A stretch of 64,000 nt of DNA from Tubulanus polymorphus. Taxonomy: Eukaryota; Nemertea; Palaeonemertea; Tubulaniformes; Tubulanidae. The DNA lies in the NCBI RefSeq assembly GCF_964204645.1, contig NC_134034.1, positions 1,176,001-1,240,000 of the forward strand. The letters are read 5' to 3'. How positions within the stretch are numbered: the first letter of the stretch is position 1; each line of letters opens with the position of its first letter. The notes under the pieces are model-generated. The model was not told the DNA's origin, did no database searches, and worked only from the letters and a program-made list of their open reading frames with translations. Shown one piece after another: positions 8,641 through 64,000 of the stretch. The position numbers were made by a program, and so were the translations under genes.

Positions 8641-8741
8641 TGGATTGTAAGTGGGTGGGCTGGTCAGTCCTATATCAGTCATTGCTCAAGAGTCTGACAA
8701 TAAGTTGTGGATATGAATGGAATAGTAATATAGCTGACAGA

Positions 8742-26192: not shown

Positions 26193-29100
26193 TATATATA
26201 TATATGTATATATATAAAATGTCATACCTATTTTTACACTGTAGGTACTGGTAGATCAGATTTCGTGAGGTTTCTAATTCATTCTAAATTTAACGCGGAG
26301 AAATTTGATCAATGCGAAAAAATAAAATCTAAACCTACGTCATGAAAAGGAGTGGCATCCGTAGTCATGACGTCTGAAGGAGTGGTACTGGTACTAGCTA
26401 GTTACTTAGATTTCACAGTGGGCTTACATCATGAACAGATTTATGAAGGCATGCGTGGATGATGTCATAGGGGGATTCATGGAAGCAGACTTCTAGAAGT
26501 ATCTATAGATGGAATCAGTAGTAGACAATTTGATGATGTCATAGGGGGATCTATCGGGGCAGACATCTTTTCTAGAAGTGTCTTTAGATCTAATCACTAG
26601 TAGACAATTTGATGATGTCATAGGGGGATTCATGGAGGCAGATATCTTTACTAGAAGTGTCTATTAATCAAATCAATGGTAGACAACTTGATGATGTCAT
26701 AGGGGGAGTTATGTGAAAGCCATATTTTCTGGATGTGTCTATAGATCAAATCACGAGTAGACAATTTGATGATGTCATAGGGGGATTTATGAAGGCAGAC
26801 ATCTTTTCTAGAAGTGTCCATAGATCAAATCCCAGTAGAAAATTTGATGATGTCATAGGGCGATCTTTTGTAGAAGCAGGTTTCAATTCAGATAAAAAAT
26901 TTCAGATGTAAAAGCAATTTTTCCAAGGGGACATTGAGAATCATAGATCAAAAGGATTACTAGTGATTTGATGATGTCATAGGGTGATTTTATCGCGGCA
27001 GACATCTCTTATACGTTTCAAAGAAAAAGCACGTACCGCTGATGAGAGCGACGAGTACTGTTGGTTTCCCGGTGACCGCATTCTGTAAGGTTGTTATATT
27101 GATGTAAGGTATCGTATCCTGAATGACGACCTCGATTCTCTTAAACGGTACCGACACTTTATTATCGGCGTAGACCGTCACCTGGTGGAGACCGGGTGAA
27201 TCGAACACGCGTTCCACGCTAACGTCCTTCCTGCCGGCGCCGATCCGCTGGCGTCCCGTTCCGTCGAAATCCGCGTCCCACACCACGTTGCTACCGGTAA
27301 CGACGCGCGCCCGAATACGCACGACGGCTCCGCGCGACCTCGGCGAATCGGAGGTGACGATCAAACCGGTGATCGGTTCCTCAATTCGTACGGTCAGACC
27401 CGTCTGCTTCGACGAGACGTAATTCGACGCGCGCACCGTCACATTATAAACGCCGACACTATCGAACGTATGATTCGCGGCGGACTCGAAATCGGATTCG
27501 CGTCGCGCGGAGAACGTCGGGTTCGTCGCGTCGTTAAAGTCCCACGCGAATACCGCGTCGGTGCCGCTCGATACCCGCGCCCGACAACGCACGCGCGTTC
27601 CAACCGGCAGAAACTGCGAGAACCGCGATTTAGTGACGACCAGTCCGGCGACTGGGTCCTGCGCGATCGTACGCGCCTCAGTCCGCGTTACGCTGATCGA
27701 ATTCCGAGCCGTAACCGCGACTACGTACGTTCCCGCGTTCGTAAACTCGTAATTCAAAATGGGCGACTTCGTCGTGAAATTCGCGATCGAGATTTCGCCT
27801 TTGATTTGGCTCGCGTCCAATTTTCGAATCGACCAATCGAAAGTCGTCTGCATGGCGGCCATACTCAGTCGAACGGACAGACGGATGTTCGTTCTCGTGC
27901 GAACCGCGTGAGGCATCGACAAGTTCGCACCGACTAAATCCTTTAACACTAAAATCGGACGGGTTAGATTCGCGTATTCGAACTTGCGCGCGACGAGTCC
28001 GCCGCCGCGTTTTAGGTAATCGTCGTTATAAGCGCGGACTTCCGGCCGGAACGGACTCTGAACGGAATACGCGTGTGTAATCTCGACCGAGAGTTTACAG
28101 CCGTGTTCATAACTCGCTACGAGGTGGATAGCACCGCTGACCGCCGGAACCGAGTCCGACGCCGTCTGCCGCTCTTTTAACACGTACATCTTCGTGTTTC
28201 CGTCGCCAAACGAGATGTTCATGATCGAATGCAGACGCGACGTCGTCGTCATCGAGATGACGAACGCGACGTTGTCGTGGATACGCACGGAGTAGTCCTT
28301 GCCGAGTTTCGTGCCCAGCGTCAAATTCGAAATTCGATGAGTCAAAACGATCTGGAAATAAAAAACCGGTCGAAAATATTTCTGAACCCCTTTTCGAGGA
28401 GTCGTAAGGAACCGTGTTTAAGCGATGAAATTTTGGACAATAAAAATATCTTCTGCTTACCACGTGAATGGTTTTATTGATCGTTCCGAAATCATTGGCG
28501 ACCGTCACGAATATATTAAACATGCCTTCTACGGTAAAACGATGATCCTGAATAATATAACGACAAAAACGCGACTGGTAAAATATTCATTCAAATTTCA
28601 AACCTGATAGGGAAAATTTTACTGACACCAAACGACACCGCTGAAGCTAAACTGCGGATACAACTGAAGCTAAACGACATGCTCACGCGAAATAATAAAA
28701 AACATAAATTTTCAGCTGGAAAAAAAGGAAAAACATTCACCAAACCGCTGTAAAAAGCAAGACTAAATTGGAAGCTGAAAATCCATGTAAACATGGCACA
28801 AAAACCGGGACTACAAAATATGAAATTGGTACCAGGCAGTAGATAGTTTGGTGGGGTGGTATCCAGACAGCTGAGAGGAGGATAGCTCCAGGCTATGTGG
28901 TTCTGGGCAGCTGAATGGAGGATAGCTCCAGGCTACAGGTCAGATCTACCTTGACACAACAGTTATCATACCAATACCTACCCAGCAGTATTCTCTCGAT
29001 TAATCTGCCAATAAAATTCCCAAACAGAAAATATATTATTTATTCGTTATAAATCATTCTTAAAATTCGAACAATTGTTTCAATGGGCTAAGACGGGATT

Positions 29101-32100
29101 TACCTCGAGTCACAAAAAAATTCACTTCTACATGAATTGAATTCAAGGTAGCTTAAACCATACATTCATAGAGGAATTAAATCAAATTTTGAGTTGAACT
29201 TTTTCACCAAAAACAGTTTAACTGACGTTACTGTTAACCCTTTCAGTGCATCTACACCGCAGTGCGGTGTATAAATCAGTGATAGATTTTGCTAGTACAC
29301 CTCACTGCGGTGTATTGATGTAATTAGTAATTAGTTTTCATCTCTCTTGAAAAATGGTAGCACCTGTCAAACATAGTGAAATATTAGTAACTAACGATAC
29401 ACCGCGCCGCGGTGTAGACGCACTATAGTGGTATTCCTGTTATTTTACACTCAGGTGGAATTTCTTAAAATTTTCAAATTATCTTCAGCCCTATAGGGTA
29501 TTAATTAGTCAGCACTGAAAGGGTTAAACTGGTTTAATTCATTCACAGTTCTGTATATTTTAGTAAACGTCTCACCTGAGCGTCTGTCAAACACGTTCTT
29601 CCAGCGCATGTATCATTCGGTATTTTAGAATCGGAGACGACCGAAGAATTCTCCGCTGTCGCGTCGGGAAATCGCCATCGAAACGTCAAATTCGTTCCCA
29701 CGGCAACCGAAGCTTCGAAGCTCACCGATTGGTTGATGAAAACGGTGACGGAATCTTTCGGAATCGGGTAATACTTCAACAGAATACAGGACGGCAGCTC
29801 CACGCTGGATGGACGTATTAGATTGACTTGAAGGTCGTGTGGAGCCGGCAAATGGACGGAGATTTGAGTGGACGTGTAAAATGTCGATATGGCGTTTTCA
29901 ACATTCAAATCTGAAACAAAATTAAACTGCCAATCAATTTGATGATGTCATAGGGGGATTTATGGAGGCAGAAATCTTTTCTAGAAGTGTCTATAAATCA
30001 AATCACTAGTAGACAATTTGATGATGTCATAGGGAGATATCAAGAAGGGAGCCATCTTTTCTGCGAGGTTACTAGTAGATAGTTAGATGATGTCATAGGG
30101 GGATTCAGTACGAAGGCGGACATGTTTTTTTTCTATACTCACTGATTGATTTAATTCCCTCGTTGTTAAACGTGTGATGAATCAACGTTCGACCGTCGTC
30201 TGTTCCTTCGTTGACGACGATCGTTTCTTGGTAAACGCTACCCGATACCTCAACGACGACCTTCACCTTCAGGTCGTCTGCCGTCATGTTGCGCACACCT
30301 AATAATAATAAGAATAATTCGAGATTTACTCAGAGAAACGATTTCAATTCAATTTCGGAAGAATCGAAGCATAGACAGAGTAACTGCTAGCGACACCTGG
30401 TGGATCCTCACTTGCCACAAGTGAAATCCTCTATTGCCGCAGTAGTTGATGTCCTACTGCACACTAGCGACACCTAGTGGATCCTCACTTGCCACAAGTG
30501 GAATTTTCTAATGCCGCAGTAGCTGATGTCCTATTCCACACTACTGACCCCTGGTGGACCTCAATTGCCACAGTAGCATTATTGGGCCTGTATAGATAAT
30601 TTTTTACATACCTGAATTCGTGTAATTCATTAATGCGGCCATTTTAACGATGACCTCTATTGACGTGCGTCTGCTGATGAGGATGTGATCCTCGACTGAG
30701 ATTTCACCGGTCAGTATAAACGGACCGCGCGTCGTGTAGATACTGATATACCCGGCGTCACCGCACGGTAAATCAACCAAACTCAACGTCTTTATACATC
30801 TATAAACAGAGAGAGAGAGCTTCATTTATTGTTTTACTTAAATTGTGTCAATCTGAATCAGTTGAGAATCACAATAAGCGACGACGAGTAAAAATACCAC
30901 AATAAATGAATGAATCTAAAAAGTTTATCTTTAAATAAGAAATAAAAGTTGTTTAGATATCGATGGGTTTCTGACAACGACGCAGACTCCTGACCCTAAT
31001 TGTAGAAATGTTACCTTTTTGAACATTTTGAAGTTTCGACGATGTAATTATCGTGAAGGCTGTTCGCGCAATAGCAGGATTTACTGTTCAGGATACCGGC
31101 ATATTTATACCTAGGAAAAAAACAAAGCGGAGAAATCAAAATAGCAATATCATATTAACGTACATCAGAACATTATGAAAAAATATTCAAAGACACTCTG
31201 GGCTCACGCAAAAAAAAAACAGGGGCTAATTTTGAAGGACTCACATCCCAAAACGGCATTTTGATGTCCAAAAAAGGCAATATTAGGATCATTACCGCGA
31301 TGAGGGGGCTATTCAAACTGTACACCCCCAGCCATTGTATGGTGACAATTTTTTTCACTTGTAACAGGACCTGAACTTGTCGCACCCAAAAAGCAAACGG
31401 CATTTTGATGTTCACAAAGGCAAAATATAAAGCGGAGTTGTACAAGTTTCACAAGACCCCCAGGAACCGATTAGAACAAACTTGATCGTCTTACTTTTTA
31501 AGACGGCAGTTTCGAGCGCAGGAGTCGACGTTGATCCCCGCATTGCCACCGATCATTGAACTGATGTTGTATTTCGTCAGTTCAAACCTGTAACAACCGA
31601 CATTCCACTCGCCGCAGGCCACTACAATAACAACAACAAAATCATCATCGAAAATTCAATTTTACAGGGTGGTGACTTTGAAAAAATCCCCTGATTTTTC
31701 CATGAAAACGAAATTCCCCCTGCTGTGAATCAGAGAAATTTCTTGGTTTAAAATGTTAAAATTCATTCATTTTTCATCGAATCACGTATTGGTATGGTAA
31801 CACGTGGGCTGGGTTTCATAGATGTGGAAGAAAGATAGTCCCCGGGAACATTTTGAATCTAGTCAGTTATAACCATGGTTTCTCATTGTTACTACGGTGG
31901 TTGTCACCCAAATTGAGGATTTACCCCTAGGGATAACTTCGATACTCAGTCTATGAAACCGGGCCCAGGTTAAGGATTTATCCCTGGGGATACTTTAGAT
32001 ACTCAGTCTATGAAACCGGGCCCAGGTCAACAGAATTATGTGAATTCCCTGAATTTTTTCCATTTTTCCGAGAAAAAATTAGCTCAATCTAACTCAAACT

Positions 32101-34943
32101 CGATGTAATACCATTTTAATCATTCATTGATCTCAACAGATGTAATAGAAAAATTTAAAACGTATCTGTTTTGAGGAGGGCATTAGGCATTTAAGCTCCA
32201 GGGCCCAGTTCCACAGTTCTGAGTTAAGATTTGACTCTGGGTTAAAAGGCAGATTTATAGGGGGTGGACCGAGTGGATCATAGATCATTAATCGGCCCTT
32301 GTGAAAAATATATATTTAACATTTCGGACTTTATTCTCGGAGGTGTTATAATCATCACAACACTGATTTCAGGATGTTAAGATTCTGAGTTAACTCATCG
32401 AAAATGAACTAATATCATGCAGTACATTTCTTTGTTTTAATTTAGATTTTTATCGGAGTGTATATTAACGTTTCTTGTGGATGTAATATAGTTTAATAAT
32501 GCTAAATATAATTCTCTTGTAAATTAATCAGCCTGATATTGATATGTGAAAAAGGGCATCAACATCGATGAGTAGTACTCTCTCCATTATATATAAACAA
32601 AAATATTGTCAAGCACACAGTTTTCTAGTTGAAGTTGTAAGATAGAAGTTGAAAATAGATCATCTAAATTCAAGATCACGACGTTATTTCAATGATGAGA
32701 AAAGGACAAGATATTCACGTCATGACACTAATCTTATCTCGGAGTTAACTCAGGACTGTAGAACCGGGTCCAGGAGAGTTTCATCAACGTTTGATGCGTA
32801 AAGTAAATTATTCAACACCACAAATCGCTTTCTGAGAAGACAATACAATTTTCATGAAGTCTCGAAGAAATGAAGACCAGTTGTTGTATATATTTCAGTA
32901 TTTAAGCGAACACCAGTTGTTGTATGTATTGTAGTATTGTAAGTATATACAGTGTATTGTATAAATTGTACTGAATTAAGGGAAAGTCTCTTCATACTTT
33001 GAATTACTATAGCCTAGGTACCGGTATAATAAATGTGTACTCATTGGTAATTTACATAAGACTCTGGGTGTGAAGATTGATATAGATAAAATCTGTTCAG
33101 AGGGTTAAAAACACTGGGGTATTAAGGGTAAACGAAATGGGATCAATATTGCATTAGTCAGGGATACCCAGTCTATAAAACCAGGTCCAAGTTAAGGATT
33201 TATCCCTAGGGGTAACTTTGATACCCAGTCTATAAAACCAGGTCCAGGTTAAGGATTTATCCCTAGGGGTAACTTTGATACCCAGTCTATAAAACCAGGT
33301 CCAGGTTAAGGATTTATCCCTAGGGGTAACTTTGATACCCAGTCTATAAAACCAGGTCCAGGTTAAGGATTTATCCCTAGGGGTAACTTTGATACCCAGT
33401 CTATAAAACCGGGTCCAGGTTAAGGATTTATCCCTAGGGATAACTTTGATACCCAGTCTATAAAACCAGGCCCAGGTTAAGGATTTATCCCTAGGGGTAA
33501 CTCTGATACCCGGTCTATAAAACCGGGTCCAGGTTAAGGATATTTCTCTTAAGGATTACTGAAATCCAGTATACAAATATAACTATGCATCTAATATTAT
33601 GAATTTCCTGGGAGGATAAACAATGATTCCAGGAATTCCAGGAATGTTGATAATATTTCTATCACGGTAAATAAAGATTTACATCGTCAGTTGAAATGTT
33701 AATTGGAAATGTCTTTGTGTTTGAGTAATTCGATAGGTCTTGAGTCTGACCCACCACATTCCAAAACCAGCCGTGAAAAAAAAAACTACAATATCCAAAC
33801 ACTGTAGAACAGGCTGTGGGGAAGTGCCAACGGCTACCTGCGACAACAAACAGGTTTCCACTCCAGGATGGAATGCAACTTTCCACCCATTTACAAATCT
33901 CCTGAGTTTTCCCTGATTTTTCAGCCCAATACAAAATTCCCAATGAGTGAATCATTTTTCATTCGAAACAAGTCAATAACATTATATCTGAATTCCATGA
34001 TTTTTCCAGGTTTTTGGCTAAAATTTATCAAATTTCCTGCAGGAGTTTTCTGATTCCCTGAGTTTCCCAGGTTTCCCAGGTCAGCGGCTATAACCCTGTC
34101 ATTTAAGCTCCCGCGACCCTCTATTTAGAATTTGGGAAACAAGAAAAGTGGTTTAAAGCTATCAATCAATCTAGAATTTTTCCTGTGAAAAACGAGTCAA
34201 TAATGAAACACCCAATCCTTGAATTCAATATCGCATTTTCTTCAACATTTCTAGCTTTGCCTCAAAAAAAATTAACCATATTTTCATATAGGTTGAAAAA
34301 ATTGTGGCCCTGTTAGGACGAAAATTACAAGTAATTTCCTGATAACAGGACTGAAAAGAAAACTACAGATTTTGATCATGATTAAAGAATTAGGGCCAGT
34401 TTTTTCATTATTTTGCAGATGTTTGTTTTTATCTAACATGAAAAATATTCATAATTGAAAAAGGAGATAATGAACTAGGAGTTAAGAGTATTAATAATTT
34501 TAGTTTGGGTGGGAGCAAGGTCTGAAAGAGGGTATTGTTTGCGATGAATCGACCAGTCACACCACACCTGACTGGTCACCGCAAGAGCTGAATGAATAGG
34601 CAAGTCTGACACCATTATTGGCCTCAAAACTCGAAACCCACTACACCAACAAAAGGCTGGTTCAATTAGTCACTCACACTTGACCAAACTTTCCAAACCA
34701 TGCTATCAACAAGCCTGACTGGTTTGAAGCAAGACAAACTGCGATCATTTCATTTCTCCATGCAAGCGCTGACCGAGAAGAGCGGCAAGGACAGGAGATT
34801 TTGACATTTTTAACTTTTTAAGAAGAAATTCTCCAAGAAATTGGAAAGAAATGTCATAAGAAATCATCGAATTTTCGATAGAAAAAGCTGAACTTACCGC
34901 AGGACAAGCCGTAGAATAACAGAAAAATAGCCACGGGTTTCAT
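12741..34943 (-). CDS. PKD1: Polycystin-1 family protein, 5' part (30 exons, 3' end outside window)
   Basis: Large secreted/membrane receptor of the polycystin-1 family, which in animals acts with TRPP channels at cilia or on sperm. Coding exons (minus strand, transcription order): 34898-34943, 31495-31621, 31015-31110, 30612-30799, 30143-30298, 29576-29910, 28461-28547, 27037-28351, 25127-25264, 24656-24860, 24229-24384, 24049-24151, 22939-23597, 21933-22166, 21515-21642, 20771-20998, 19988-20107, 19375-19646, 18806-18957, 18278-18410, 17395-17604, 17039-17217, 16262-16492, 15485-15657, 15004-15144, 14607-14891, 14190-14438, 13594-13736, 13011-13140, 12741-12858. All phases match and no stop interrupts the 6,737 nt (2,245 codons). 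The start ATG at 34943 opens a signal peptide, [16 protein letters not shown]. Order: signal peptide, WSC (about 16-90), about 14 PKD repeats (205-1610), REJ (from about 1611). I see no LRR or C-type lectin. GPS, PLAT and TM segments are missing because exon 30 ends in phase 2 and no next exon is visible. Confidence 0.93.
13480..14175 (-). repeat. 79-bp family block in PKD1 introns 27 and 28
   Basis: About eight copies in transcript sense (minus strand), on both sides of exon 28. The intron after exon 27 begins with the repeat about 9 nt after its donor, and the intron after exon 28 about 15 nt after its donor. Confidence 0.9.
14607..15144 (-). CDS. PKD1: PKD1 exons 25-26: low-complexity linker splitting the REJ module
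   Basis: Exon 25 (15004-15144) ends in a Thr-only stretch built from ACA/ACG codons with a single Ala and Val-Ser, likely mucin-type O-glycosylated. Exon 26 (14607-14891) is Ser/Gly/Arg-rich and contains the strongly basic [15 protein letters not shown], followed by Ser-rich and Gly-Asn-Arg-rich tracts; exon 27 opens with Gly/Thr repeats ([20 protein letters not shown]). All three exons begin and end in phase 1, so each can be skipped or duplicated without a frameshift. The R-R-R-R-K-R string fits a furin-type cleavage consensus. Such an insert is not part of the REJ modules I know. Confidence 0.8.
15190..15475 (+). repeat. 79-bp family block in PKD1 intron 24
   Basis: Four copies, antisense to PKD1. 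The block fills the intron almost from the exon 24 donor to near the exon 25 acceptor. Confidence 0.9.
15740..15975. repeat. Inverted pair of CTTAAGACCAGTCTAAGACC elements
   Basis: Phrases GGGGCCGGTTCCATAGAC and TTAAGACCAGTCTAAGAC occur at both ends in opposite orientation (end reads TCTTGACTATGGAACCGGCC). Relatives are at 21070-21220, 39020-39220, 40630-40740 and 56310-56450, each itself an inverted unit. Confidence 0.7.
17640..18215 (+). repeat. 79-bp family block in PKD1 intron 20
   Basis: About eight tandem copies, antisense to the gene, filling most of the 673-bp intron between exons 20 and 21. Copies are more diverged here than in UBR3. Confidence 0.9.
18326..29910 (-). CDS. PKD1: PKD1 exons 6-20: array of about 14 PKD (Ig-like) repeats
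   Basis: Tandem PKD domains, beta-sandwich modules with mechanical and adhesion roles. Each has a W/F-D/N-F-GDG-like first half and a Y/F-x-x-x-G-x-Y-x-V-x-V-x-A-x-N second half. Clear examples: [10 protein letters not shown] with [15 protein letters not shown] (exons 15-16), [10 protein letters not shown] with [15 protein letters not shown] (exons 19-20), [11 protein letters not shown] with [15 protein letters not shown] (exon 8) and [11 protein letters not shown] with [15 protein letters not shown] (exon 13). Several repeats have lost the GDG motif ([10 protein letters not shown] in exon 6, [11 protein letters not shown] in exon 9), as is usual in this family. Introns often cut a repeat between its two halves, at varied phases. 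My count of 14 is by eye and could be off by one or two. Confidence 0.85.
19040..19350. repeat. 77-bp family, 4 tandem copies in PKD1 intron 18
   Basis: Units include GATCCACCAGGTGTCGCTAG, TGTGCAGTAGGACATC and CTACTGCGGCAATAGAGGAT. The block ends about 20 bp from the exon 18 donor. Confidence 0.88.
20188..20685. mobile_element. Foldback element: 500-bp inverted repeat in PKD1 intron 16
   Basis: Two arms of about 240 bp, roughly 90% alike by eye, surround a loop of about 7 nt (acttcag near 20437). Paired phrases: AATGTCTATTTCAACCTGAC with GTCAGGTTGAAATAGACATT at the outer ends, GACAGGCAGTC with GACTGCCTGTC, and AACAATATGTTTCCATGCCT with AGGCATGGAGACATATTGTT near the loop. It lies between exons 16 and 17, so the PKD1 pre-mRNA can form a very long stem. 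Confidence 0.88.
21655..21930 (-). repeat. 79-bp family block in PKD1 intron 14
   Basis: Four copies in transcript sense. The first CCCCTATGACATCATG core begins about 11 nt after the exon 14 donor. Confidence 0.88.
22266..22550. mobile_element. TTAA MITE copy A, in PKD1 intron 13
   Basis: 285 bp, flanked by TTAA on both sides, with terminal inverted repeats CCCTTTCAGTGCTGAC / CCCTTTCAGCGCGTC. Three internal palindromes of the form ACACCGCNNTGCGGTGT are present (one with a GC-to-GT change). TTAA target duplication and CCCT ends are typical of piggyBac-type elements; no transposase is encoded. Confidence 0.85.
23251..23350 (-). repeat. In-frame GCT/GCA-GAC minisatellite inside a PKD repeat of PKD1
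   Basis: Within PKD1 exon 13, about seven copies of a 15-nt unit (plus strand GCTGCTCCTGCGTCT and variants) add an Ala/Asp/Gly-rich run of AADAG pentapeptides, between the [10 protein letters not shown] strand and the YHMPPKFKV segment of one PKD domain. The unit is a multiple of three, so length change keeps the frame. It sits in what should be a surface loop. Similar insertions are not expected in conserved PKD domains, so it is probably lineage-specific and length-polymorphic. Confidence 0.85.
23640..24000. repeat. CCAGTTCCACAGTTGAGACT repeats in PKD1 intron 12
   Basis: About six diverged units with GTCCAGTTCCACAGTTGAGA and TAAGATTAGGCTAAGCT. Related to the array at 56740-57205 in UBR3 and to a shorter run at 24900-25030. 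Confidence 0.8.
25400..25880. repeat. 56-bp tandem array, about 8 copies, PKD1 intron 8
   Basis: Unit AAATTAATCAGTAATCGACA, GTAAGACCCTCAGTAACATC, TTTCATATTTCTGTTC. Copies differ by single bases, with more decay towards the right end. Confidence 0.93.
26117..26213. repeat. (TA)n microsatellite
   Basis: About 95 bp of nearly pure TA in PKD1 intron 8, with two interruptions near the right end. Confidence 0.97.
26455..26990 (-). repeat. 79-bp family block in PKD1 intron 8
   Basis: Seven copies in transcript sense. In the transcript the first one (AGAGATGTCTGCCGCG) starts about 30 nt after the exon 8 donor. Confidence 0.9.
27037..28351 (-). CDS. PKD1: PKD1 exon 8: single 1,315-nt exon carrying about four PKD repeats
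   Basis: The longest exon in the window and the most GC- and CpG-rich stretch. It begins after a pyrimidine-rich acceptor as [15 protein letters not shown] and ends LVALISG at a GTACGT donor in phase 1. It encodes four consecutive PKD modules with second-half motifs [28 protein letters not shown] and [14 protein letters not shown], joined by linkers of the type PVAGLVV and PITGLIV. Neighbouring PKD repeats are interrupted by introns, so this block may reflect intron loss (retroposed segment) or an exon never invaded by the intronic repeats that surround it. Confidence 0.88.
29234..29527. mobile_element. TTAA MITE copy B, in PKD1 intron 6
   Basis: 294 bp between two TTAA sites, ends CCCTTTCAGTGCATC / CCCTTTCAGTGCTGAC. 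Palindromes ACACCGCAGTGCGGTGT, ACACCTCACTGCGGTGT and ACACCGCGCCGCGGTGT. Opposite orientation to copy A. Confidence 0.9.
29935..30115 (-). repeat. 79-bp family block in PKD1 intron 5
   Basis: Three sense copies filling the intron between exons 5 and 6; the first starts about 15 nt after the exon 5 donor. Confidence 0.88.
30385..30590. repeat. 77-bp family, 2-3 copies in PKD1 intron 4
   Basis: Units with CGACACCTGGTGGATCCTCA, CTTGCCACAAGTGGAATC and CCGCAGTAGTTGATGTCCTA, the same orientation as the array at the right end of the window. Confidence 0.88.
31015..31621 (-). CDS. PKD1: PKD1 exons 2-3: WSC domain
   Basis: These two exons encode a cysteine-rich WSC-type domain, a putative carbohydrate-binding fold also present near the N-terminus of vertebrate polycystin-1. 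Visible features are the opening [13 protein letters not shown], a middle [12 protein letters not shown], and the closing [16 protein letters not shown] followed by a last Cys in ETSKCSK. The intron between them (31111-31494) splits a Lys codon after two bases. In human PKD1 the WSC domain follows leucine-rich repeats; here it follows the signal peptide directly, so either the LRR block is absent in this lineage or an unseen upstream exon encodes it. The 16-residue signal peptide argues for absence. Confidence 0.8.
31622..34897. other. PKD1 intron 1
   Basis: 3.3-kb first intron. Mostly AT-rich unique sequence without exon candidates. It contains a 57-bp tandem array (33150-33540) and two isolated relatives of that unit at about 31900-32030. 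Short ORFs at 33662-34053 lack support. Confidence 0.7.
33150..33540. repeat. 57-bp tandem array, about 7 copies
   Basis: Unit AGGTCCAGGTTAAGGATTTA, TCCCTAGGGGTAACTTTGAT, ACCCAGTCTATAAAACC. Includes the near-palindrome ATCCCTAGGGGTAA. Located in PKD1 intron 1. Confidence 0.93.
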
Positions 34944-38289: not shown

Positions 38290-38515
38290 GATTATTGCAG
38301 GTAATATGTCCATACATCCCCCTACGACATCATCAAATTGTCGATTATTGGTCGGAAATCGCAGGTCCCTCAATTCTCCCTATGACATCATCAAGTATCT
38401 CGTAAGACTGATGAAGAGAGCCAGCTGCTTTTCCAGTAGTGTCCACAGATCAAATCACTAGTAGATGATTTGATGACATCATAAGGGGATTTATGTACGC
38501 AGCCATCTTTTCTAT
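38290..38515. repeat. 79-bp family, mixed-orientation copies
   Basis: Two forward copies then one reverse copy, in the presumed ORMDL 3'UTR. An inverted arrangement is uncommon in this window. Confidence 0.8.
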
Positions 38516-39623: not shown

Positions 39624-41534
39624 TCAATATTTATTAATTCCGAATAATCGTTTTTTGTAGAGCTGCGGTAATTTCGGCACGAGCGCCAACAGAATCAACG
39701 TCGACGCGTTCAACGTGAAGTGATACGGATCGTATTTTGTGTAGAGACTCGCCAGGAAAAATCTACAAAACGAAAATGAACTTTATTCTCAAAAACCCGA
39801 CCAAGAAAAATCTAGAAAACGAAACAAGATATTTTTTTCGAAAACCCGAACAAACTATTGATTCTTCATCGAAAATATCCTCAGTCAGATTTTGGACCGA
39901 TACGCCCTCGCTTACCAGAGTTTGATTGCCTCACAACAACACCAACCCTGGACCTTCATCGGTCTACTACACCGCCTAGATTTTTTGGGTGGACTGGTTA
40001 CCACTCAGCGGCTACCAGTCTCTGAGATGAGTTGTTATTCACCAGCAGATTCGCTTTATCAATACAACGCATCGAATTGGCTAGATATATAGACTGGTGG
40101 GCGCTGAGCGGGAACCTGTGCGCCTGAGAAATCTTGGCCAGTGTAATAGAACAATGTTGGGTTTGTGATGGTGTCAAGTTCAGCGGGAGACAATCAAACC
40201 CTGGCTAGTGAGGACTGACCGATATTAACTTATTGAACAAGTCCCGGCAGTCCATCTTCACCCGTCAAGGGATTCGAACCCACTACGCTAAAGCTGTTCC
40301 CCGAACCCCTTGACCTCACGAGTCGTTGGAGTCGTTACTAGCCGACCAGAATCCGGTCGTACCAATCACAGCGCTTGTAACAAACGACAGTAGGCTTCTG
40401 TTGGTTTTCCCGTTAAATGGACCAATCAGCGAACGTTTTACCGAACAAGGAAGTATTTCGCAAATCGATATATGACGTCACGCGCAACAGCGCCAATAAT
40501 GAAATCACGCTTCGTGAGGCCAGGTTGCTGGTGGAAGCGAGTTCGGGAGTGATACCGACACCCCTGGCAAGCGAGGATGCGGCAGTCCAGCCTGGTTTAA
40601 TTGAGCATCAGTTTTAACGACTTTACAGCGTTCTCCAAAGTAATCTTAAATCTTAAGACTAGTCTTAAGTTGTTAGACGAGCTATATAACTAGGTCTTAA
40701 AACTGATTCTAAATGTAAACCTGGACTGTACTTGAACTGGCCCCAAGTTGTAAGGCACGTGTTGTTGATACTTACAGTACAATAGGAACGACAGTGAGGA
40801 ATTTTTTTGTAGCCGTTAGTTGCTCGCCGTGGTCGAACTGTTCCCAGACGGTCAACACGCGGTTCTTACCCTGATCGCACGTTTCAAACGGAGTTCCCTT
40901 CTCGATGTGCAGATACAAAAACATTAACTACAAACAAAACAAGAACAAAATCATTTCAACCAGTTCTCGATCAGGAGCCGTCTGCCCGTTAGACATCTCA
41001 ATTACCGGCTGGCTGCTAGAAGTGTTTATAGATCGAATCAATACTAGCTAAAATACATTTTTGCTAGAAGGTAATGTGATGTCATAGGGGGATTCATAGA
41101 GGCAGACATCTTTTCTATAGTGTCTATAGATTAAATCACTAGTACACAATTTGATGATGTCATAGGGTGATCTATGGTGGCAGACATCTTTTGTAGAAGT
41201 GTCTACAGTTCAAATCACTAATAGGTAATCTGATGATGTCATAGGGGTATTTATGGAGGCAGACATCTTTTCTAGAAGTGTCTATTGATGAAATCACTAG
41301 TAGACAATTTGATGATGTCATAGGGTGATTTATGGAGGCTGACATGATTTTTCGTTCACTTACAACGTTGTGCAGTAGATTGGTAAGCGTCCACGCTGTC
41401 GCCACGGTGAAGAACGGGATGCTGAGAATGATGAGATGAAAGAAGAAAATGATGAGGATGTACGTGACCCACATTCCTTTACTGTTAAAGTACGTTTCCG
41501 TAGGATTCGTGCCTCCGTCTGTTCCGACCTGCAT
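39624..41534 (-). CDS. ORMDL: ORMDL-family ER protein, complete, 3 exons
   Basis: Orosomucoid-like (ORMDL/Orm) proteins are ER membrane proteins that bind serine palmitoyltransferase and restrain sphingolipid synthesis when ceramide is high. Exons on the minus strand: 41364-41534, 40776-40927, 39624-39762, phases 0 and 2, giving 153 residues, the same length as human ORMDL proteins. Landmarks: [20 protein letters not shown], the helix [20 protein letters not shown], then [56 protein letters not shown], and the near-invariant end [18 protein letters not shown]. About four hydrophobic segments are present. A minus-strand acceptor just upstream of the ATG (AG near 41577) suggests a 5'UTR intron. 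Vertebrates have three paralogues; which this corresponds to, if any, cannot be told. Confidence 0.96.
40130..40400 (-). mobile_element. tRNA-derived SINE-like sequence in ORMDL intron 2
   Basis: On the minus strand the sequence around 40262-40282 contains an exact RNA polymerase III B-box, GGTTCGAATCC, inside a stem GTCAAGG...CCTTGAC that resembles a shortened tRNA acceptor plus T-arm. About 60 nt upstream the minus strand reads GGTCGGCTAGTAACGAC, a poor A-box. No complete tRNA cloverleaf can be drawn, because the D and anticodon arms are missing. The following part (minus strand, towards 40130) would be the SINE body; a related phrase, CCTGG(C/A)A/TAG(T/C)GAGGA, recurs at 40560-40600. Confidence 0.45.
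41030..41345 (-). repeat. 79-bp family block in ORMDL intron 1
   Basis: Four copies in transcript sense between ORMDL exons 1 and 2. The first begins about 15-20 nt after the exon 1 donor and the block covers most of the 436-bp intron. Confidence 0.9.
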
Positions 41535-54861: not shown

Positions 54862-57800
54862 ATGATGGCTGGCGGGCAGCACGACCATGCCGCTAATGCG
54901 CTAATGAAGCGAGGCAAGCGACCGCTGGCCGTTTACATGAAAGCTCAATGTTTGAGAATCGTCGGAAAAAACAACTGTCAACAGCTTCACGATTTACTGG
55001 ATCACCTGCTCGACCCTAGAGAACCCTTCGATTACGAGCGTATCGACTGGTGTCGTTGGTTGATTGCAGGGGGCGCCACGTTCGACGATTTTGCTAAAAC
55101 TGGTGAGTCTCAGTCAAGTCGCTGACACAATTCATGTCCAAAAATTTTTATTGCACCTCTACTACAAGGCATGGGCATGGGTCTGGTTTTTGAGTGGGTT
55201 TAAATTAAAACTTACCCAACCCTCCTTAGAAGGATAGAGAAAATAGATTCCCTTCCACAGACGAAAGTCTCGTAGCGTCCTGCTAGGCCTATTTGATTCC
55301 ATAGTTTGAAATATAAATCATCTAATTTATGGTTTTCTACGGGTGGCGCCACTTACTGGAAGCCAGGAAAAGTTGTAAAAAAGCTACTTTAGTGGGGAAA
55401 ATTAGTTTAGATTTGTTTAGATTTAGAATATGCGTAGAGTCAAACTGTTTCTATCTGTAAATAGTATTGTTTCTATCTATATATTTGACGTGTGTTAATT
55501 GATTGGATTCTTACCAGATCAAGTCAGGAAAAGTAACGCGCATGTTAGGGAATAAATAGTCAGGGTATTTTCTTAGAAATAGTTGAGGAAATTAGTCGGG
55601 ATTGCTTTCGATCGCTCGTAAAATCTAAACTGTTTCCGTTTATGTTTTACGTTTTATCTGTTTATGATTTAGTGCGTATGTACGATAACGCTGTAACGTG
55701 CGGTCTCGTTTGGACGGCTAATTTCGTCGCGTATCGCTGTCGAACGTGCGGCATCTCGCCGTGTATGTCGCTGTGCGCCGAGTGTTTCCAGGCCAGCGAT
55801 CATCAGGGTCACGATTTCAACATGTTCCGCAGTCAGGCAGGGGGCGCTTGCGACTGCGGCGATGTCAGCGTCATGAACCCAGACGGGTGAGTGTTAATGA
55901 TTTTAAGCATTTCGGTTGTTTAACCCTTTCAGTGCATCACACCGCAGTGCGGTGTATGAATCGGTGATGGATTTTGCTAGTACACTGCGGTGTATTGATT
56001 TAATTAGTTTTTAGTTGTTATCTCTATATAAAGATGGCAGCACCTGTCAAACATAGTGAAATACTAGTAACTAACGATACACTGCACTGCGGTGTAGACG
56101 CACTATAGTGGTATTCCCGTTATTCAACACACTAGGGCAGAATTTTCCCAAATTTTCACATTTTTTCCAGCACTATAGGGTAGTCAGCACTGAAAGGGTT
56201 AAATAATCTATAGGCTTTGTCTTGATTTTAAATGCTAATTAAAGTAAAATCTTGTGTGAAGAATGTTCTTCAACTACAGACTAGTCTTCTGATTTAAAAC
56301 AACCCAACTCTGGGGCCAGTTGCACAGTCGTGACTTAAGTCCAAAAGTGGTCTTTTATCTTAAGACTGGTCTTAAGTTGTTAGATTGGCTATAGAACAAA
56401 GTTGGTCTTAAGTCTAAGCCATGACTATGGAACTGGGCCCTGGACTGGGGGTAGATGTAGTTCTTACTTCAGCCGACCGTGTTCCCAGTTTTGCAGGATA
56501 ATCGCTAAACTCAATTGCCAAATTTTTCATTCAGATTTTGTCCTCGCCACGGTCCGAACCGGACTAGTCAGCAGCATTCCGTTCCTCCGGACTTGCTCGT
56601 CATCGCGGAAGAAATGATGCCGCGGTTGCTATGGCGATTCATCCAGCATCTACGCGGAAATTCGAAACCCGGTAAGTTCCCTCCGTTATTCTGAAATATT
56701 CATGAGTAACACTAAAACTAGGCCGGCAGTTACGACTGTGGATAAGACCTGGCTCTAAATTTAAGCCCTGGTTTAGCTATTTTTGGTCTAGTTATTCTGT
56801 TGAGACTTAAGTTTAGACCAAGCTAAGCTTAATTTGATAGAGTGTTCACAAGAAAAACCCAGTTTCACTGTTGAGAGTAAACATTAGACCGGGCTAAGCT
56901 AATTTCAGTCCAGTTCCACTGTTAAGAGTAAAGATAAGTCCGGGCTAAGCTAATTTTAGTCCAGTTCCACTGTTAAGAGTAAAGATAAGTCCGGGCTAAG
57001 CTAATTTCAGTCCAGTTCCACTATTAAGAGTAAAGATAAGACCGGGCTAAGCTAATTTCAGTCCAGTTCCATTGTTAAGAGTAAAGATAAGTCCGGGCTA
57101 AGCTAATTTCGGTCCAGATCCACAGTTAAGAGTAAAGAAAAGTCCGGGCTAAGCTAATTTTGGTGCAGGTCCACAGTTGAGAGTTACGATAAGACCGGTC
57201 TAACTGATTGTTGATGATAATGTTTTTGATTACAGAGATGTTGGATACGTTCCTGGTTGCTATGGAAGATGCTGATCAGTATCTGACGTTTCTACACACT
57301 CTCAGTGATATGGGCGCCGCTATGCGACATGTTTTCACATCAGCCATGACCAACACGCAAGTTTACAAAAATTTCAACGAAAGTGAGTCATAGCCAAGAT
57401 GTCTGCCTTCATAAATCCCCCTATGACATCATCAACTCGTCAACTATTGATCTATAAATCACTTCTATAAAAAATGTCTGCCTCCATAAATCCCCCTATT
57501 GATCGAATCACTGAAAAAGGAAATATTAATCACTTTTAGGTAATTTGATGATGTCATAGGGGGATTTATTGTGGGGGTTTATTTTTGAGAAATTGTGAAA
57601 ACTTTATTATGAATGCGTCTGTGTTGTATGAGTAGGTCGTCGAGGGCAGACGTCTACCCACAATGCATCACCTAGTTCGTCAACGGCAGACGTTGATTTC
57701 GACGAAGAATTACAGATAAATTACGAGACGGCGATCGAATCGTTGAGGTTTCCTCCGATGCCCGAAGAATTACCCGGTAGATATTTCCCGGTTAAAGATT

Positions 57801-60800
57801 CCGGTCTAAGATTTAATAATAATCAAAGTTGTAGTTGATTGTTTATTTTTTGATCGGGTCGTTGTTTTTAGAACTGGCGCGACAGCAGAGTAAACTTGTC
57901 CACACGAACTTGTTAGAAGAGCTCGTCTTCTGGATGGTAAAATTCGAATTTCCTCAGAAGATCGTCACTCTACTGTTGAGTATCTTACCAGACGACGCCT
58001 ACAAGGTAAGCAACACCGGGTTGATCCAGGTGTGCACGTTTCTGAGATATCCCTCTGACTGGAGGTGAGGCCAAACGTTTTGTAACAGTGGTAATAACCT
58101 GGGCCCAGTTAATTCTGAGTTTAAATCAGTTCATTTTCAAAGTTTTAACCACGGAGTCAAATTCAACTCTGAACTGTGGTACTGGATCTTGTAGTATTAA
58201 GTGTATTGTTAAAAGAAAATGTTTAGAAAATTAGAAAGGTTGAAATTTTAAAGATTTTTTTATCCAGATTATGTTATTCGGAATCATGCCTATCTCCGGT
58301 GGGTGGCTCCAGGAATATCTTGATCATGGTATTCGGAGTCACCCCTCTCTCTAGTTGGTGGCTCCAGGAATATCTTGATCATGGTATTCGGAGTTATCCA
58401 TTTCTCCGGTGGGTGGCTCCAGGAATATCTTGATCATGGTATTCGGAGTTATCCATTTCTCCGGTGGGTGGCTCCAGGAATATCTTAATCATGGTATTCG
58501 TAGTCATCCCTTTCTCTAGTGGGTGGCTCCAGGAATATCTTAATCATGGTATTCGTAGTCACCCCTCTCTAGTGGGTGGCTCCAGGAATTGTATTTGGAG
58601 TCATCCCTTTCTCTAGTGGTTGGCTCCAGATTTGTGTCTAAGATTCGTGATGATTATTTTCTATAGGAAGCGTTCACGCGTACGTTTGTTCAACACTACA
58701 GTCGTATATCGATAGCGCTGGTGAATTCCATCGACCGGCAGACGATCTCAAACCGGGTCGTACACATCAGCGTTCAGCTGTTCAGCAACGAATCGATCGC
58801 GTCGAAGATCGCCGAACAATATCAGCTCATACACGTGATGATCGCTAGTTTAAATCACATGCTGAAAAATATACTCACCGAGAGTACGTTACAAGGTACG
58901 TCAATCCCCCTATGACATCATTATCACTGATGCATGATCCCCCTATGACATCATTATCACTGACGATGCAATACTAACGCGATAACATCGAATGAATTTT
59001 GATTCCGATTTATAGAAACTTCTAGATAAGAAAAGATGTCTGCCTCCATAAATCCCCCTATGACATCATCAAATTACCTACTAGTGATTTGATCTATAGA
59101 CACTTCTAGAAAAGATGTCTGCCTCCATAAATCCTCCTATGACATCATCAAATTGTCTACTAGTGATTTGATCTATAGACACTTGTAGAAAAGATGTCTG
59201 CCTTCATAAATCCCCCTATGACATCATCATTAGGGAAACCTCGGTTACAGATACTTCACTACAATAAAGATGGCATACTCCATAAATCCCTCTATGATGT
59301 AATCATTTTAGTCTCATTCAGACTTTAGATACTTTACAGAAAATTGTCCGGCTGCGTAAGTCCCCCCTATGACATCATAATCTGATATTGAAATGTTTTC
59401 TAGTTGCAGAATGTAATTTACACATGGTAGTTGATTGTAGTAAGGATATACTGAGGGATCACTGTTATTGGCCGGTAGTTAGTGATCTGATTAATCTACT
59501 ATCACACTCGTCTATAGCTAATCAAATATTCGACGATCTGAAAATGATGCCCATGTGGCTCGAACTGATTTCTTATTTTCAAGGTACGTATTCCGGCCGC
59601 ATATCCCCCTATGACATCATGCAATTATCTACTAGCGTGATATGATACTTGACACTTCTAGAAAAGATGTCTGCCTCCATATATCACGCTATGACATCAT
59701 TTAATTATTTACTACACTGTAGTGTGATATTTGACACTTCTAGAAACGATGTCTGCCTCCATAAATCCCCCTATGACATCATCAAATTGTCTACTAAGTG
59801 ATTTGACCTATAGACACTTCTAGAAAAGATGTCTGCCTCCACAAATTCCCCTATGACATCATCAAATTGTCTACTAGTGATTTGATACTTGACACTTCTA
59901 GAAAAGATGTCTGCCTCCATAAATCCCCCTATGACATCATCAAATTGTCTACTAGTGATTTGATACTTGACACTTCTAGAAAAGATGTCTGCCTCCATAA
60001 ATCCCCCTATGACATCATCAAATTGTCTATTAGTGATTTGATCTCTAGACCCTTCTAAAAAACATGTCTGCCTCCTTAATCACCCTATGACATCATCACA
60101 TTGTCAACTAGAGTGTAGACCCTTCTAAAAAACATGTCTGCCTCTATAAATCCCCCTATGACATCATCAAAATGAATTGTATCATTGAATTGTAGGAATG
60201 AATTTGAACGTACGCGAGTTGTCTCAACACGTAGAATATGAACCGGACACGTATTATGCTGCGTTCTCGGCTGAGTTAGAAATATGTGCGTCGCCGATGT
60301 GGTCTCTACTCGTACATCTCAAAAACAAGGTCCGTCTGCTCGAGAATTAGAGAAATCTGGAAAATTTAAAAAAAACTGGAAAATCGGAAGATCGTTTTTT
60401 TATTTCTAGGGCGACGAAGAGCGCTGTAAACGTATAATAAAGATGATAGTCTCCGCTCTGCAGCATTGGTTCAACGTTATAGACGTCAATTCGAATACGG
60501 TGGTACGTTTCATATCACTGCAGGGTGGCGCCACTGACCTCGAAAACTACGGGATTCAGAAAAATCTTGAAAAAAATTGGGGAGAACTCTCCGGGAATTT
60601 GACAATTTTTACCAAAAACCTGGAAAACTCAGGGCCCGGTTTTATAGACTGGTATTGATTTCAACCCGGGTTTCAAGCTAATTCAATTCATTTTCAATTG
60701 AGTTAACATACCAGGCCTAGGGAAATAGAATAATGCTATTGACGAACTGTTTCTTTATTATCAATACGTGATTTAATGAAAAATGAATAAATCGTAAAAT

Positions 60801-63680
60801 ATTAAGTTAAGAAATTTCTCTGAGGGAATTTTGTGTAATCACATGGAAAAATCCGGGACCAGGGCCCAGTTTCACAAAAAAGGGAACTCAAATTTTTGGT
60901 GTAATTGCCATTGGTTACTTCGTGTTTTCAATGACGACAACAGTTCGAACTTAACCGAGGCTTCCAATTTTTTGTGAAACTGGGCCCAGTTACAATCAAT
61001 CTGGGATGTTTGGCAACTTTCATTTACTCAAGATCTTTACATCTGTAGCTGAACCACGGATATTGCGTATATTCTCGACGTTTCATTTTCTCTCCGTATT
61101 TTCAGCCGAATAGTCGTCAGATATCGTTTCATTTACCGCTGCATCGTTATCTGGCGGCGTTTCTCAGTCAGGCCGTCTGCGTGCTCGACATCCCGTTATC
61201 GGACGTGCTGCCATCTAGTGACCAATTGAAACAACTACTCATTCATCCTTTACAAATACAGGTAGCGAACGAAAACAAACTTTTGATTCGCTTCGTTTTT
61301 AAAAGCTGACTATGAAATTTAAAGAAATTTAAATTCTTTTTCACGTGTTTCTTTTTCCTGCCTACAGGTGGCGTTTTACGAGATATTCTGCGGTCTATGG
61401 GTGCGAAACGGGTTACAAATCAAAGGACAAGCGATGACCTACATACAGTGTCATTTCTGTAACAGTCTCGTAGACGCCGACATCTTCCTCTTACAGGTAC
61501 GATCCCCCTATGACATCATCAAATTGTTCACTTGTGATTCGATCTATAGACACTTGTAGAAATGATGTCTGCCTCCACAAATCCACCTATGACATCATCA
61601 AAGTCTAATTACTGGTGATTTGATTTATAGACACATCCAGGAAATATGGCTTTCACAAAACTCCCCCTGTGTCATCATCCAAATACCTACTGGTGATATA
61701 GACCCTTCTAGAAAAGGTGTCTGCCTCCATAAATCCACCTATGACATCATCAAATCACTTACGGGTGATATAGACCCTTCTGGAAAAGGTATCTGCCTCC
61801 ATAAATCCACCTATGATATCATCAAAGTCTAATTACTTACTATTGATTTGATTTATTTCTAAGAAAAGATGTCAGCCTTCATATAATCCCCCTATGACAT
61901 CACTTTATCATCTGCTGCTGGTGTATTACAGGTGTGTTTTTATTTATAGGTTTGCGCTGCGTATTTAGATCCCGAGTTCGTTTTGAAATCAATATTTGAA
62001 AGATTCCACGTATTTGATTGGGTAACGTTGAGTCCGATTCCCACGTTGTCGCCACGGTTACAGCACGAGGATGCATTGTTGGAAGGCTGTCTGACATTCC
62101 TCGCCACACTGCTCGGTTTCCGTAATCATTGGGGTACGTCTCTTAAAAACTGGAACTAGGTCTAGAACCCACAATTGTGGAACTGGGCCAAGAACCCACA
62201 ACTGTGGAACTGGGCCAAGAACCCACAACTGTGGAACTAGGTCTAGAACCCACAACTGTGGAACTGGGCCAAGAACCCACAACTGTGGAACTAGGTCTAG
62301 AACCCACAACTGTGGATCTGGGTCTAAAACCCACAACTGTGGAACTGGGTCTAGAACCCACAATTGTGGAACTGGGCCAAGAACCCACAACTGTGGAACT
62401 GGGCCAAGAACCCACAACTGTGGAACTAGGTCTAGAACCCACAACTGTGGAACTGGGCCAAGAACCCACAACTGTGGAACTAGGTCTAGAACCCACAACT
62501 GTGGAACTGGGTCTAGAACCCACAACTGTGGAACTGGGTCTAAAACCCACAACTGTGGAACTGGGCCCAGAACCCACAACTGTGGAACTGGGTCTAGAAC
62601 CCACAACTGTGGAACTGGGCCCAGAACCTACAACTGTGGGATGAAATTTTCAACAACTGTGGAACTGGGTTTATTATTTACAACTGTTTAAACTTTGATT
62701 CCAAATTTATAACTGTGAAATTGTGTGTAGAACCCACAACTGCGGAACTGGGTTCCTAATTGACAACTGGGAAATGTGGTCCTGTAGTACACACAACTGT
62801 GGAACTGGGACTGTAATTCGTAAGGTTCTTCTGTTTCATATATGTTTGCTGTGTTAATTGTAAACAGGTATTGGGGAAGAAGAATTAACACGTATCGAAA
62901 TGGTTACTCTGTTATGCGTTAGTGATCGCACGCATTCACAATTGATGGATCTGATGCCAGAGAAATGCGGCTTGAGCGGACAAACGAAACAGTTTGAACC
63001 CATTCTCAGACAGGTACGTCTATCGGTGACACCTAGTGTTGCTCTTTTCAACTACTAGTTACGCACAGCCATCTATTGTCATTCGAATCAACTAATTCAA
63101 CATCCTCATACAAATACATCTACGAATATTTATTACAATCCAACCATTTCCATGGTATATGGAGGAAAAACAGTATTTACAATTAATTACATAAACAGCA
63201 ATAAAAGCCTTTAAACCTCAATAAACTGGGCTCACACTTATATGCGTAAAAAACTATTAACTAGTCACCAAGTGTCCTTCTAATCAACTAGTCACAAAGA
63301 GCCACCTAGTGTCACAAACATCAACTATTTCTTTGGCGATGTGGATATCGAATTATTGTATTTGCCGTTACAGATTGGTGACTATAAGGCTCCTAATTTC
63401 GAGGCTGGTGGTGGTACTATGCAACAGGGCATGTATGTGCCTAAAGGTAAATAACCAATCTACGTCTGCTCATGAAATACATTACATGTATTATCGATTT
63501 TCCTTTGAAATTTTCAACGAGAAACATTTTTAACTGATTAACTGCTGTTTATTTGAAAAGTTTACGCCCGTTGTTATTTGTAGAATTAGTTTGGAATGAA
63601 GATTTCGACCCGATGTATGTTTCTTTGAGAGCCGTTCATCGCAGGGACTTTCAGAGCGCCATGGATCGATATACTACGGC
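54862..63680 (+). CDS. UBR3: E3 ubiquitin-protein ligase UBR3, N-terminal part (16 exons, 3' end outside window)
   Basis: UBR3 is a large UBR-box RING ubiquitin ligase (about 1,890 residues in human). Coding exons: 54862-55102, 55673-55886, 56535-56671, 57236-57382, 57636-57776, 57872-58005, 58667-58895, 59404-59583, 60196-60329, 60410-60502, 61106-61261, 61368-61496, 61950-62133, 62868-63013, 63374-63446, 63584-63680. All phases agree, giving 811 residues and ending in phase 2 at the last donor. The start is fixed by an in-frame TAA six bases upstream, just after a 5'UTR acceptor (TTTTCAG at 54849-54855); a second ATG follows at once. Landmarks: the UBR box (90-157), FHPR-like linker, [26 protein letters not shown] and [16 protein letters not shown], all close to UBR3 as I know it. 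The RING and C-terminal parts lie to the right. Confidence 0.95.
55699..56550 (+). CDS. UBR3: UBR3 exons 2-3: UBR zinc box
   Basis: The zinc-binding UBR box spans residues 90-157 and is split by one intron carrying a TTAA MITE (55887-56534). Zinc ligands expected for the fold are all present: C90, C103, C106, C111, C115, C118, H124, H127, C140, C142, C154 and H157 ([47 protein letters not shown]). This box in UBR1/2 binds basic N-degrons; in UBR3 classical N-degron binding has not been demonstrated, so substrate recognition should not be inferred from it. Confidence 0.93.
55920..56202. mobile_element. TTAA MITE copy D, in UBR3 intron 2
   Basis: 283 bp between TTAA sites, ends CCCTTTCAGTGCATC / CCCTTTCAGTGCTGAC. 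The middle palindrome is shortened to ACACTGCGGTGT and the TATTAATTAG segment near the right end is deleted, so this copy is more decayed than B and C. Confidence 0.9.
56740..57205. repeat. 51-bp tandem array, about 8 copies, UBR3 intron 3
   Basis: Unit GGGCTAAGCTAATTTCAGTC, CAGTTCCACTGTTAAGAGTA, AAGATAAGTCC. Ends about 25 bp before the UBR3 exon 4 acceptor. Confidence 0.92.
57390..57570. repeat. 79-bp family in UBR3 intron 4
   Basis: Two forward copies and one reverse copy. The first begins about 12 nt after the exon 4 donor. Confidence 0.88.
58265..58630. repeat. 56-bp tandem array, about 6 copies, UBR3 intron 6
   Basis: Unit GGTGGGTGGCTCCAGGAATA, TCTTGATCATGGTATTCGGA, GTCATCCCTTTCTCTA. 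Same family as 9990-10255. Confidence 0.92.
58900..59370 (+). repeat. 79-bp family block in UBR3 intron 7
   Basis: Seven forward copies covering nearly the whole 508-bp intron. The first core starts about 10 nt after the donor and the last ends about 25 nt before the exon 8 acceptor. Confidence 0.92.
59590..60175 (+). repeat. 79-bp family block in UBR3 intron 8
   Basis: Eight forward copies making up almost the entire 612-bp intron. This block has the most regular 79-bp period and the best-conserved copies (59800-60030). Confidence 0.93.
61495..61905 (+). repeat. 79-bp family block in UBR3 intron 12
   Basis: Five to six forward copies. The CCCCCTATGACATC core begins 7 nt after the G of the donor GT, so the 5' splice site sequence (GTACGAT) runs straight into the repeat. 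Confidence 0.92.
62150..62830. repeat. 27-bp tandem array, about 18 regular copies plus decayed units, UBR3 intron 13
   Basis: Unit AACCCACAACTGTGGAACTG followed by GG(T/C)C(T/C)AG. Regular to about 62640, then diverged to 62830. The reverse complement carries CCAGTTCCACAGTTGTGG, the same core as the array at 3361. A 27-bp (nine-codon) period leaves long open frames on both strands; these are not genes. Confidence 0.93.
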
Positions 63681-63693
63681 GTAAGAATCCGGC

Positions 63694-64000
63694 ACACTGG
63701 CGACACCTGGTGGATCCTCACTTACCTCAAGTGGAATCTTCTATTGCCGCAGTAGTTGATATCCTACTGCGCGCTAGCGACACCTGGTGGATCCTCACTT
63801 GCCACAAGTGGAATCCTCTATTGCCGCAGTAGTTGATGTCCTACTGCACGCTAGCGACACCTGGTGGATCCTCACTTGCCACAAGTGGAATCCTCTATTG
63901 CCGCAGTAGTTGATGTCCTACTGCACGCAAGCGACACCTGGTGGATCCTCACTTGCCACAAGTGGAATCCTCTATTGCCGCAGTAGTTGATGTCCTACTG
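63694..64000. repeat. 77-bp tandem array, at least 4 copies, runs off the window
   Basis: Unit CGACACCTGGTGGATCCTCA, CTTGCCACAAGTGGAATCCT, CTATTGCCGCAGTAGTTGAT, GTCCTACTGCACGCTAG. Begins 13 nt after the UBR3 exon 16 donor and copies are nearly identical. Confidence 0.95.

Follow-up and report, generated by a model that had tools for sequence, protein, structure and literature searches.

Why do so many introns of unrelated, neighboring genes begin with the same short tandem repeat? The preliminary description of the stretch of Tubulanus polymorphus DNA analyzed here (64,000 nucleotides, C10:1176001-1240000, hereafter the window) noted a 79-bp repeat beside 5' splice sites and proposed either introner-type elements or array growth bounded by exons. 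We joined the window to 100 kb on each side, and the resulting 264 kb served as the main test region within a genome of 268 Mb in 77 contigs. The 17-nt core of the repeat, CCCCCTATGACATCATC, has 68 matches in the window at up to 3 mismatches, compared to 0.13 expected. Exact cores number 1060 across the genome, 84 of them in the 264 kb, where their density is approximately 80 times that of the genome. In total, the 264 kb contain 47 arrays or copies of the repeat family, 41 of which span at least 40 bp.

Intron borders were taken from models made by a small ab initio gene finder, which we trained on the 264 kb itself with repeats masked. The initial settings were discarded for overprediction (one gene with 1654 exons), and the second and third sets were used, giving UBR3 models of 30 and 31 exons, respectively. 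The genes are animal-like: UBR3 (Pfam zf-UBR), PKD1 (Pfam PKD, Polycystin_dom, and PKD_channel), and ORMDL (PF04061) lie inside the window, and RIF1 and SCAP (both by Pfam) adjoin it. RIF1 was recovered as well, PKD1 in several pieces, and the SCAP model has an incorrect first exon, therefore its donor distance of 1692 is meaningless. Without repeat masking, 29 of 29 host introns were predicted identically. Eight of the 47 arrays fall outside predicted introns and one overlaps an exon; several have a donor-like junction by eye, and we did not add these to the intronic set. At C10:1269737-1274958 (L021, L022), a small gene that begins MDFEQLIEDED is present three times in tandem on the minus strand.

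The clearest cases in the window are in UBR3, on the plus strand, where introns 4, 7, 8, and 12 had been described as starting with the element. The models give the same borders, with the first core 33, 10, 20, and 6 nt past the donor, respectively. Intron 4 (57383 to 57635, 253 nt) holds a sense array at 57416-57488 and then a convergent antisense copy at 57528-57565, and intron 7 (58896 to 59409, 514 nt) holds a sense array at 58906-59228 and a single core at 59363. It had also been noted that some introns are nearly all repeat, which is borne out by UBR3 intron 8 (59584 to 60195, 612 nt), where a sense array at 59604-60168 makes up 92% of the intron and ends 27 nt from the acceptor, and by UBR3 intron 12 (61497 to 61949, 453 nt), where a sense array at 61503-61904 makes up 89% and ends 45 nt from the acceptor.

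ORMDL and PKD1 are read on the minus strand. ORMDL intron 1 (40928-41363) begins with the element as described, its sense array (41013 to 41328) lying 35 nt from the donor. Of five donor-near sense copies described in PKD1, four stand: 29927 to 30103 in a 232-nt intron (39 nt from the donor, 16 nt from the acceptor), 26458 to 26986 in a 1772-nt intron (50 and 1193 nt), 13754 to 14156 in a 453-nt intron of which it makes up 89% (33 and 17 nt), and 13481 to 13577 in the next intron, also of 453 nt (16 and 340 nt). The fifth, at 21617 to 21922 on the minus strand, is model-dependent: the first model places it roughly 10 nt from a donor but also has a predicted exon that overlaps it, the later model leaves it unassigned, and we counted it as nonintronic. 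Antisense copies, which lie on the plus strand, were correctly placed at two PKD1 donors, an array at 15222 to 15476 (donor 8 nt, acceptor 77 nt) and a single core at 18783 to 18799 (donor 6 nt). Another antisense array, at 17660 to 18213 (plus strand), lies 64 nt from its donor and 55 nt from its acceptor in an intron whose position repeats that of another PKD-repeat intron. Elsewhere in the window, a plus-strand array at 5976 to 6191 is in no predicted intron, and at 38316 to 38489 two plus cores are followed by a minus copy in a convergent, inverted-repeat arrangement.

We quantified placement with the 41 arrays of at least 40 bp, of which 32 are intronic according to the models, 23 of them in sense orientation and 9 in antisense. 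Nineteen of the 23 sense arrays lie within 50 nt of the donor, compared to 13.3 expected when arrays are slid within their own introns, and 16 of the 23 fill at least 60% of the intron. Because the donor excess of sense arrays remains after this sliding (P = 1.5e-4 / P = 0.0001), we rejected short introns as the sole cause of the closeness to splice sites. A stricter sense test, restricted to multi-unit arrays and using minimal splice spacing and a position statistic, gave P = 0.04 on C10, 0.07 elsewhere, and 0.01 combined.

Other dispersed tandem families recur in introns of the window and served as controls; window examples of tandem families are those of 77 bp (19053-19335, 30387-30572, and 63692-64000), 51 bp (56859-57203), 57 bp (33163-33541), and 27 bp (62151-62639). 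None of the seven control families, which together have 90 arrays in this DNA (50 of them intronic), has a donor excess at P < 0.05, and in this local sample the family is more often intronic than they are (32/41 versus 50/90, P = 0.019). A gene-finder artifact was rejected, given that the 29 host introns are mask-independent and the control families are unbiased under the same masking. Placement at exon edges is thus real and specific to the 79-bp repeat family. Among the 30 multi-unit arrays in introns of the 264 kb (22 sense and 8 antisense), many fill the host intron, and for 22 the distance from the outer end to an exon is at most 50 nt.

The preliminary description took the 5' splice site as the anchor. 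Our data replace it with the exon edge: the array's own 5' end, which we call the outer end, faces the exon, such that arrays in sense orientation lie against donors and those in antisense orientation tend to lie against acceptors, a placement absent from the preliminary description. In SCAP, for example, two antisense arrays are 18 and 27 nt from acceptors. Tested against a uniform position, antisense outer ends are the closest to exons, both on C10 and elsewhere (P = 0.002 in each). For the outer-end test we used 43 arrays of at least 60 bp (30 on C10 and 13 elsewhere) and dropped 15 shorter intronic copies; the outer end is nearer the exon than the inner end in 31 of the 42 untied arrays (P = 0.003). 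In 24 introns, located on C2, C6, C7, C8, C9, and C10, the array leaves 120 nt or more of free space; 21 of them follow the rule, with one tie and two exceptions, and 16 have the outer end no more than 50 nt from an exon, compared to 1 for the inner end. Single copies (<60 bp) follow the rule in 8 of 15 cases and break it in 7. Two antisense copies in PKD1, at donor distances of 6 and 8 nt, are clear exceptions.

The placement of the element near donors extends beyond the window, to the 264 kb and to other chromosomes. It had been suggested that a genome-wide distribution flat with respect to splice sites would speak against introners; on our sample (the 264 kb plus 28 loci), exon-edge placement is present for multi-unit arrays and not for single copies. 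The 28 loci comprise 24 places on C3, C4, and C6 to C9 and four of eight further places, on C2, C3, C4, and C6. They hold 40 copies or arrays, of which 20 are in predicted introns (10 sense and 10 antisense) and 20 are in none, in gene models that are less certain where they come from 3-kb loci; 13 of the 20 intronic copies (>=60 bp) entered the outer-end test. Nine of the 10 peptides tested have a Pfam match (the tenth, from L038, has none; L032, L037, L046, and L048 were outside the test). By Pfam assignment, sense arrays lie 25 nt from the donor in a filamin gene, 20 nt in the gene for an ankyrin protein, 69 nt in that for a HAD-hydrolase-domain protein (presumably a P-type ATPase), and 102 nt in that for an MFS transporter. 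Antisense arrays lie 49 nt from the acceptor in a ubiquitin hydrolase gene, 35 nt in the gene for a BRCT protein, and 27 nt in that for a DEG/ENaC-type channel, also by Pfam.

Sense arrays are in excess on C10 (22/30, P = 0.016) and in total (30/43, P = 0.014); elsewhere, the share of 8/13 is not significant. The best decoy acceptor in antisense arrays scores 4.1, compared to 3.0 in sense arrays and a median of 6.4 for real sites, and decoy acceptors are a weak reason for the sense excess.

The architecture of the copies suggests what the repeat is. Opposite-strand cores no more than 400 nt apart form 12 convergent pairs and no divergent ones, a regularity that the preliminary description does not mention. 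One of these pairs straddles an exon, therefore the remaining 11 of 11 can each be one element (P = 0.001). Given this constant convergence, our preferred reading is that the repeat represents a terminal inverted repeat from a nonautonomous, foldback- or MITE-like transposon. One locus on C9 (L045) looks like a whole element of approximately 175 bp, short and apparently noncoding. The motif GATGTC is present in 4 of 36 outermost copies and in 73 of 131 inner copies (P = 1e-6), which indicates that arrays have a defined outer end.

Identity between units is 0.839 within arrays (165 pairs) and 0.811 between arrays (5191 pairs), considering 104 units from 32 arrays. The idea that each array grew from one founder unit per intron, which would predict clearly higher likeness within arrays, is weakened by these similar values and by the distinct outermost copy. 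A second arm is not visible in most arrays, and a tandem second arm is visible in few cases. We recognized no target-site duplication by eye in the few whole-looking, old copies among the convergent pairs. GTACG donors occur in 7 of 24 host introns and 18 of 148 others (P = 0.054), and we do not rely on donors supplied by the element. Two other candidates were rejected: a common tail beyond the array, since tails share mainly fragments of the inverted arm, and resident single modules as landing pads, since none scores at least 8 outside the masked arrays.

The core is not tied to the 79-bp period. Elsewhere in the genome, core spacing ranges from about 32 to 95 bp, with the same core and a variable spacer, and the module's outer half shows no more than moderate conservation away from C10; conservation of the core in these places partly reflects how copies were picked. 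We counted the 79-bp form by a spacer-specific 26-mer, which has 69 exact copies genome-wide: 55 in C10:0.08-2.03 Mb, 9 in C6:20.9-22.9 Mb, 1 on C12, and 4 on C37. The family thus has regional subfamilies, and the 79-bp form is itself regional, with 55 of 69 diagnostic copies within 2 Mb of one chromosome end. Apart from the C12 copy and the four on the small contig C37, the form is found at the ends of two large contigs, and C37 may belong to one of these. The same core recurs at 37-bp and 41-bp periods in the arrays C10:272219-272901 and C6:21458689-21459156. A 24-mer of the module has 0 matches in IMG/VR.

We consider the arrays most likely to derive from a transposon with inverted repeats, whose arms were amplified and came to sit against exons with the outer end leading, and give this reading a probability of roughly 0.6. 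The repeat would be the terminal inverted repeat of a short, noncoding DNA transposon of MITE or foldback type, with an outer end that is roughly AAAGATGGCTGCC and an inner end ..CCCCCTATGACATCATC; an autonomous counterpart would have ends matching AAAGATGGCTGCC and CTATGACATCATC. Tandem amplification of one arm would have produced the 79-bp arrays here and the arrays with other spacers on other chromosomes. The element, which is probably a transposon judging from its architecture, may have landed in very short introns or itself supplied them, and later growth would have occurred on the inner side of the array. Antisense arrays may be fewer in part through their somewhat better decoy 3' splice sites. 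Several observations count against this reading: the regional confinement of the 79-bp form, which would be unusual for a freely mobile element; the lack of a target-site duplication recognizable by eye; the few second arms; the single copies, of which 8 of 15 follow the rule; the P value of 0.07 for sense arrays alone outside C10, where the sense excess (8/13) is not significant either; the two rule-breaking antisense copies near PKD1 donors; and the 20 of 40 copies or arrays at other loci that are in no predicted intron.

A stronger form of this reading holds that the element is a true introner, which inserted into exons in either direction and created most of the host introns, its arms amplifying afterward. 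After removal of the array, 8 of 28 host introns keep 25 to 59 nt, and 87 introns free of repeats have a minimum length of 64 nt (P = 5e-6); however, the insertion may have been followed by loss of older intron sequence. RIF1 intron 5 (84 nt) consists mostly of the two arms, and RIF1 intron 4, which is 90% array, splits the Rif1_N domain (amino acid 192 within 101-288). The higher intronic share than in the control families also favors an introner. On the other side, the PKD1 intron noted above is at the same PKD-repeat position as an intron without the family, and the ORMDL host intron may be ancient. Because these two hosts look old, the PKD1 intron by comparison within the gene, intron creation is not general. 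Intron phases are also alike (14/11/4 in hosts versus 67/49/36 in others), and donors are not clearly derived from the element. The introner-type interpretation therefore stands with respect to placement, which is introner-like and family-specific, and falls short with respect to intron creation as a general process. That the element made the introns that are almost wholly array is a tentative suggestion that we would sooner doubt than accept, and that it made most of the host introns seems to us unlikely.

The arrays could alternatively be an old minisatellite that spread by recombination or gene conversion between nearby introns and grew until stopped by exons, with no transposition. Such a history would suit the confinement of the 79-bp form to chromosome-end regions and a region in which tandem repeats of all families make up approximately 19% of the 264 kb. 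An inverted pair of genes that we take to be ADA2-like (C10:1255500-1261600 and C10:1289400-1294600, on the L019-L020 and L023-L024 sides) also suits it: both copies carry an array, of unequal length and in one case with a duplication through the acceptor, which indicates that arrays change size in place. We find this account improbable, given that control families in the same DNA are not placed at exon edges and that it fails to predict the convergent pairs, the distinct outermost copy, and the orientation rule. The module might instead have a function in splicing or regulation, as a signal retained close to donors, as the recurrence of the same core with very different spacers and the sense excess would allow. 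This is very improbable: a profile scan of the array-masked 264 kb found 0 further modules at a score of at least 8 and 1 at a score of 6, conservation of the core owes something to the choice of copies, and a signal acting in RNA is at odds with the antisense arrays near acceptors.

Introners are transposable elements that make introns, which one large survey reports from only two animal groups, with inverted-repeat ends in 72 of 177 families (Gozashti et al. 2022, PMC9860276). The family resembles them in having related sequence at the intron ends of unrelated genes (for multi-unit arrays, not single copies), in both orientations, with gene enrichment in our local sample (32/41 versus 50/90) and inverted-repeat ends. 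Unlike introners as described there, it forms tandem arrays rather than single copies and is regional, and its intron gain is only a candidate. According to the same source, low-complexity families were removed from the survey (PMC9860276), a filter that this family of tandem arrays would not pass; tandem-repeat introners would thus have been missed. At the level of titles and abstract openings we saw no tandem-repeat introner in an animal, and we found no paper that joins the terms introner and foldback; most subscription journals lay outside the scope of both searches.

The arrays may, though we hold it doubtful, represent a foldback-type introner in an animal: an element with tandem arms that inserts into exons either way, acts as an intron at once, and lengthens from within. 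Whole introns of UBR3, RIF1, and PKD1 would then be a transposon arm, and the regional subfamilies would be a sign that introns are gained in a local spread at chromosome ends. If intron creation were confirmed, an intron-rich animal would have introns made of a transposon arm, and there would be reason to rescan genomes without the filter. Even if the introns are old, the placement of arrays outer end first is an unusual pattern of insertion or retention. Taken as a whole, an element that sits beside exons and often makes up almost all of the intron may show introns built or rebuilt by mobile DNA.

Among known systems, Drosophila foldback elements have arms with tandem repeats that seed satellites, and those described as Tetris and Galileo have units of about 220 bp and arms of up to 1.7 kb, with Tetris units as alike between arrays as within them (PMC4079207). 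The family shares with these elements the inverted arms of tandem repeats (12 convergent pairs, none divergent, with a second tandem arm in few cases), variable repeat number, no coding capacity seen, the likeness of units, and arms that seed satellite-like arrays; in contrast, its units measure about 32 to 95 bp, amplification has mostly affected a single arm, and its sites are at exon edges. It is like MITEs in being short and apparently noncoding with inverted-repeat ends (L045, approximately 175 bp) and unlike them in that its arms have grown into arrays and no target-site duplication was recognized by eye. Ordinary minisatellites likewise form short arrays of variable copy number that are dense near chromosome ends; however, this family is oriented and exon-anchored, unlike seven other families in the same DNA, and unit likeness within arrays is not clearly higher than between them. 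Also present in the window, at 8740-9127, is a 23-bp repeat with approximately 17 copies and 100% matches, which suggests a very recent expansion.
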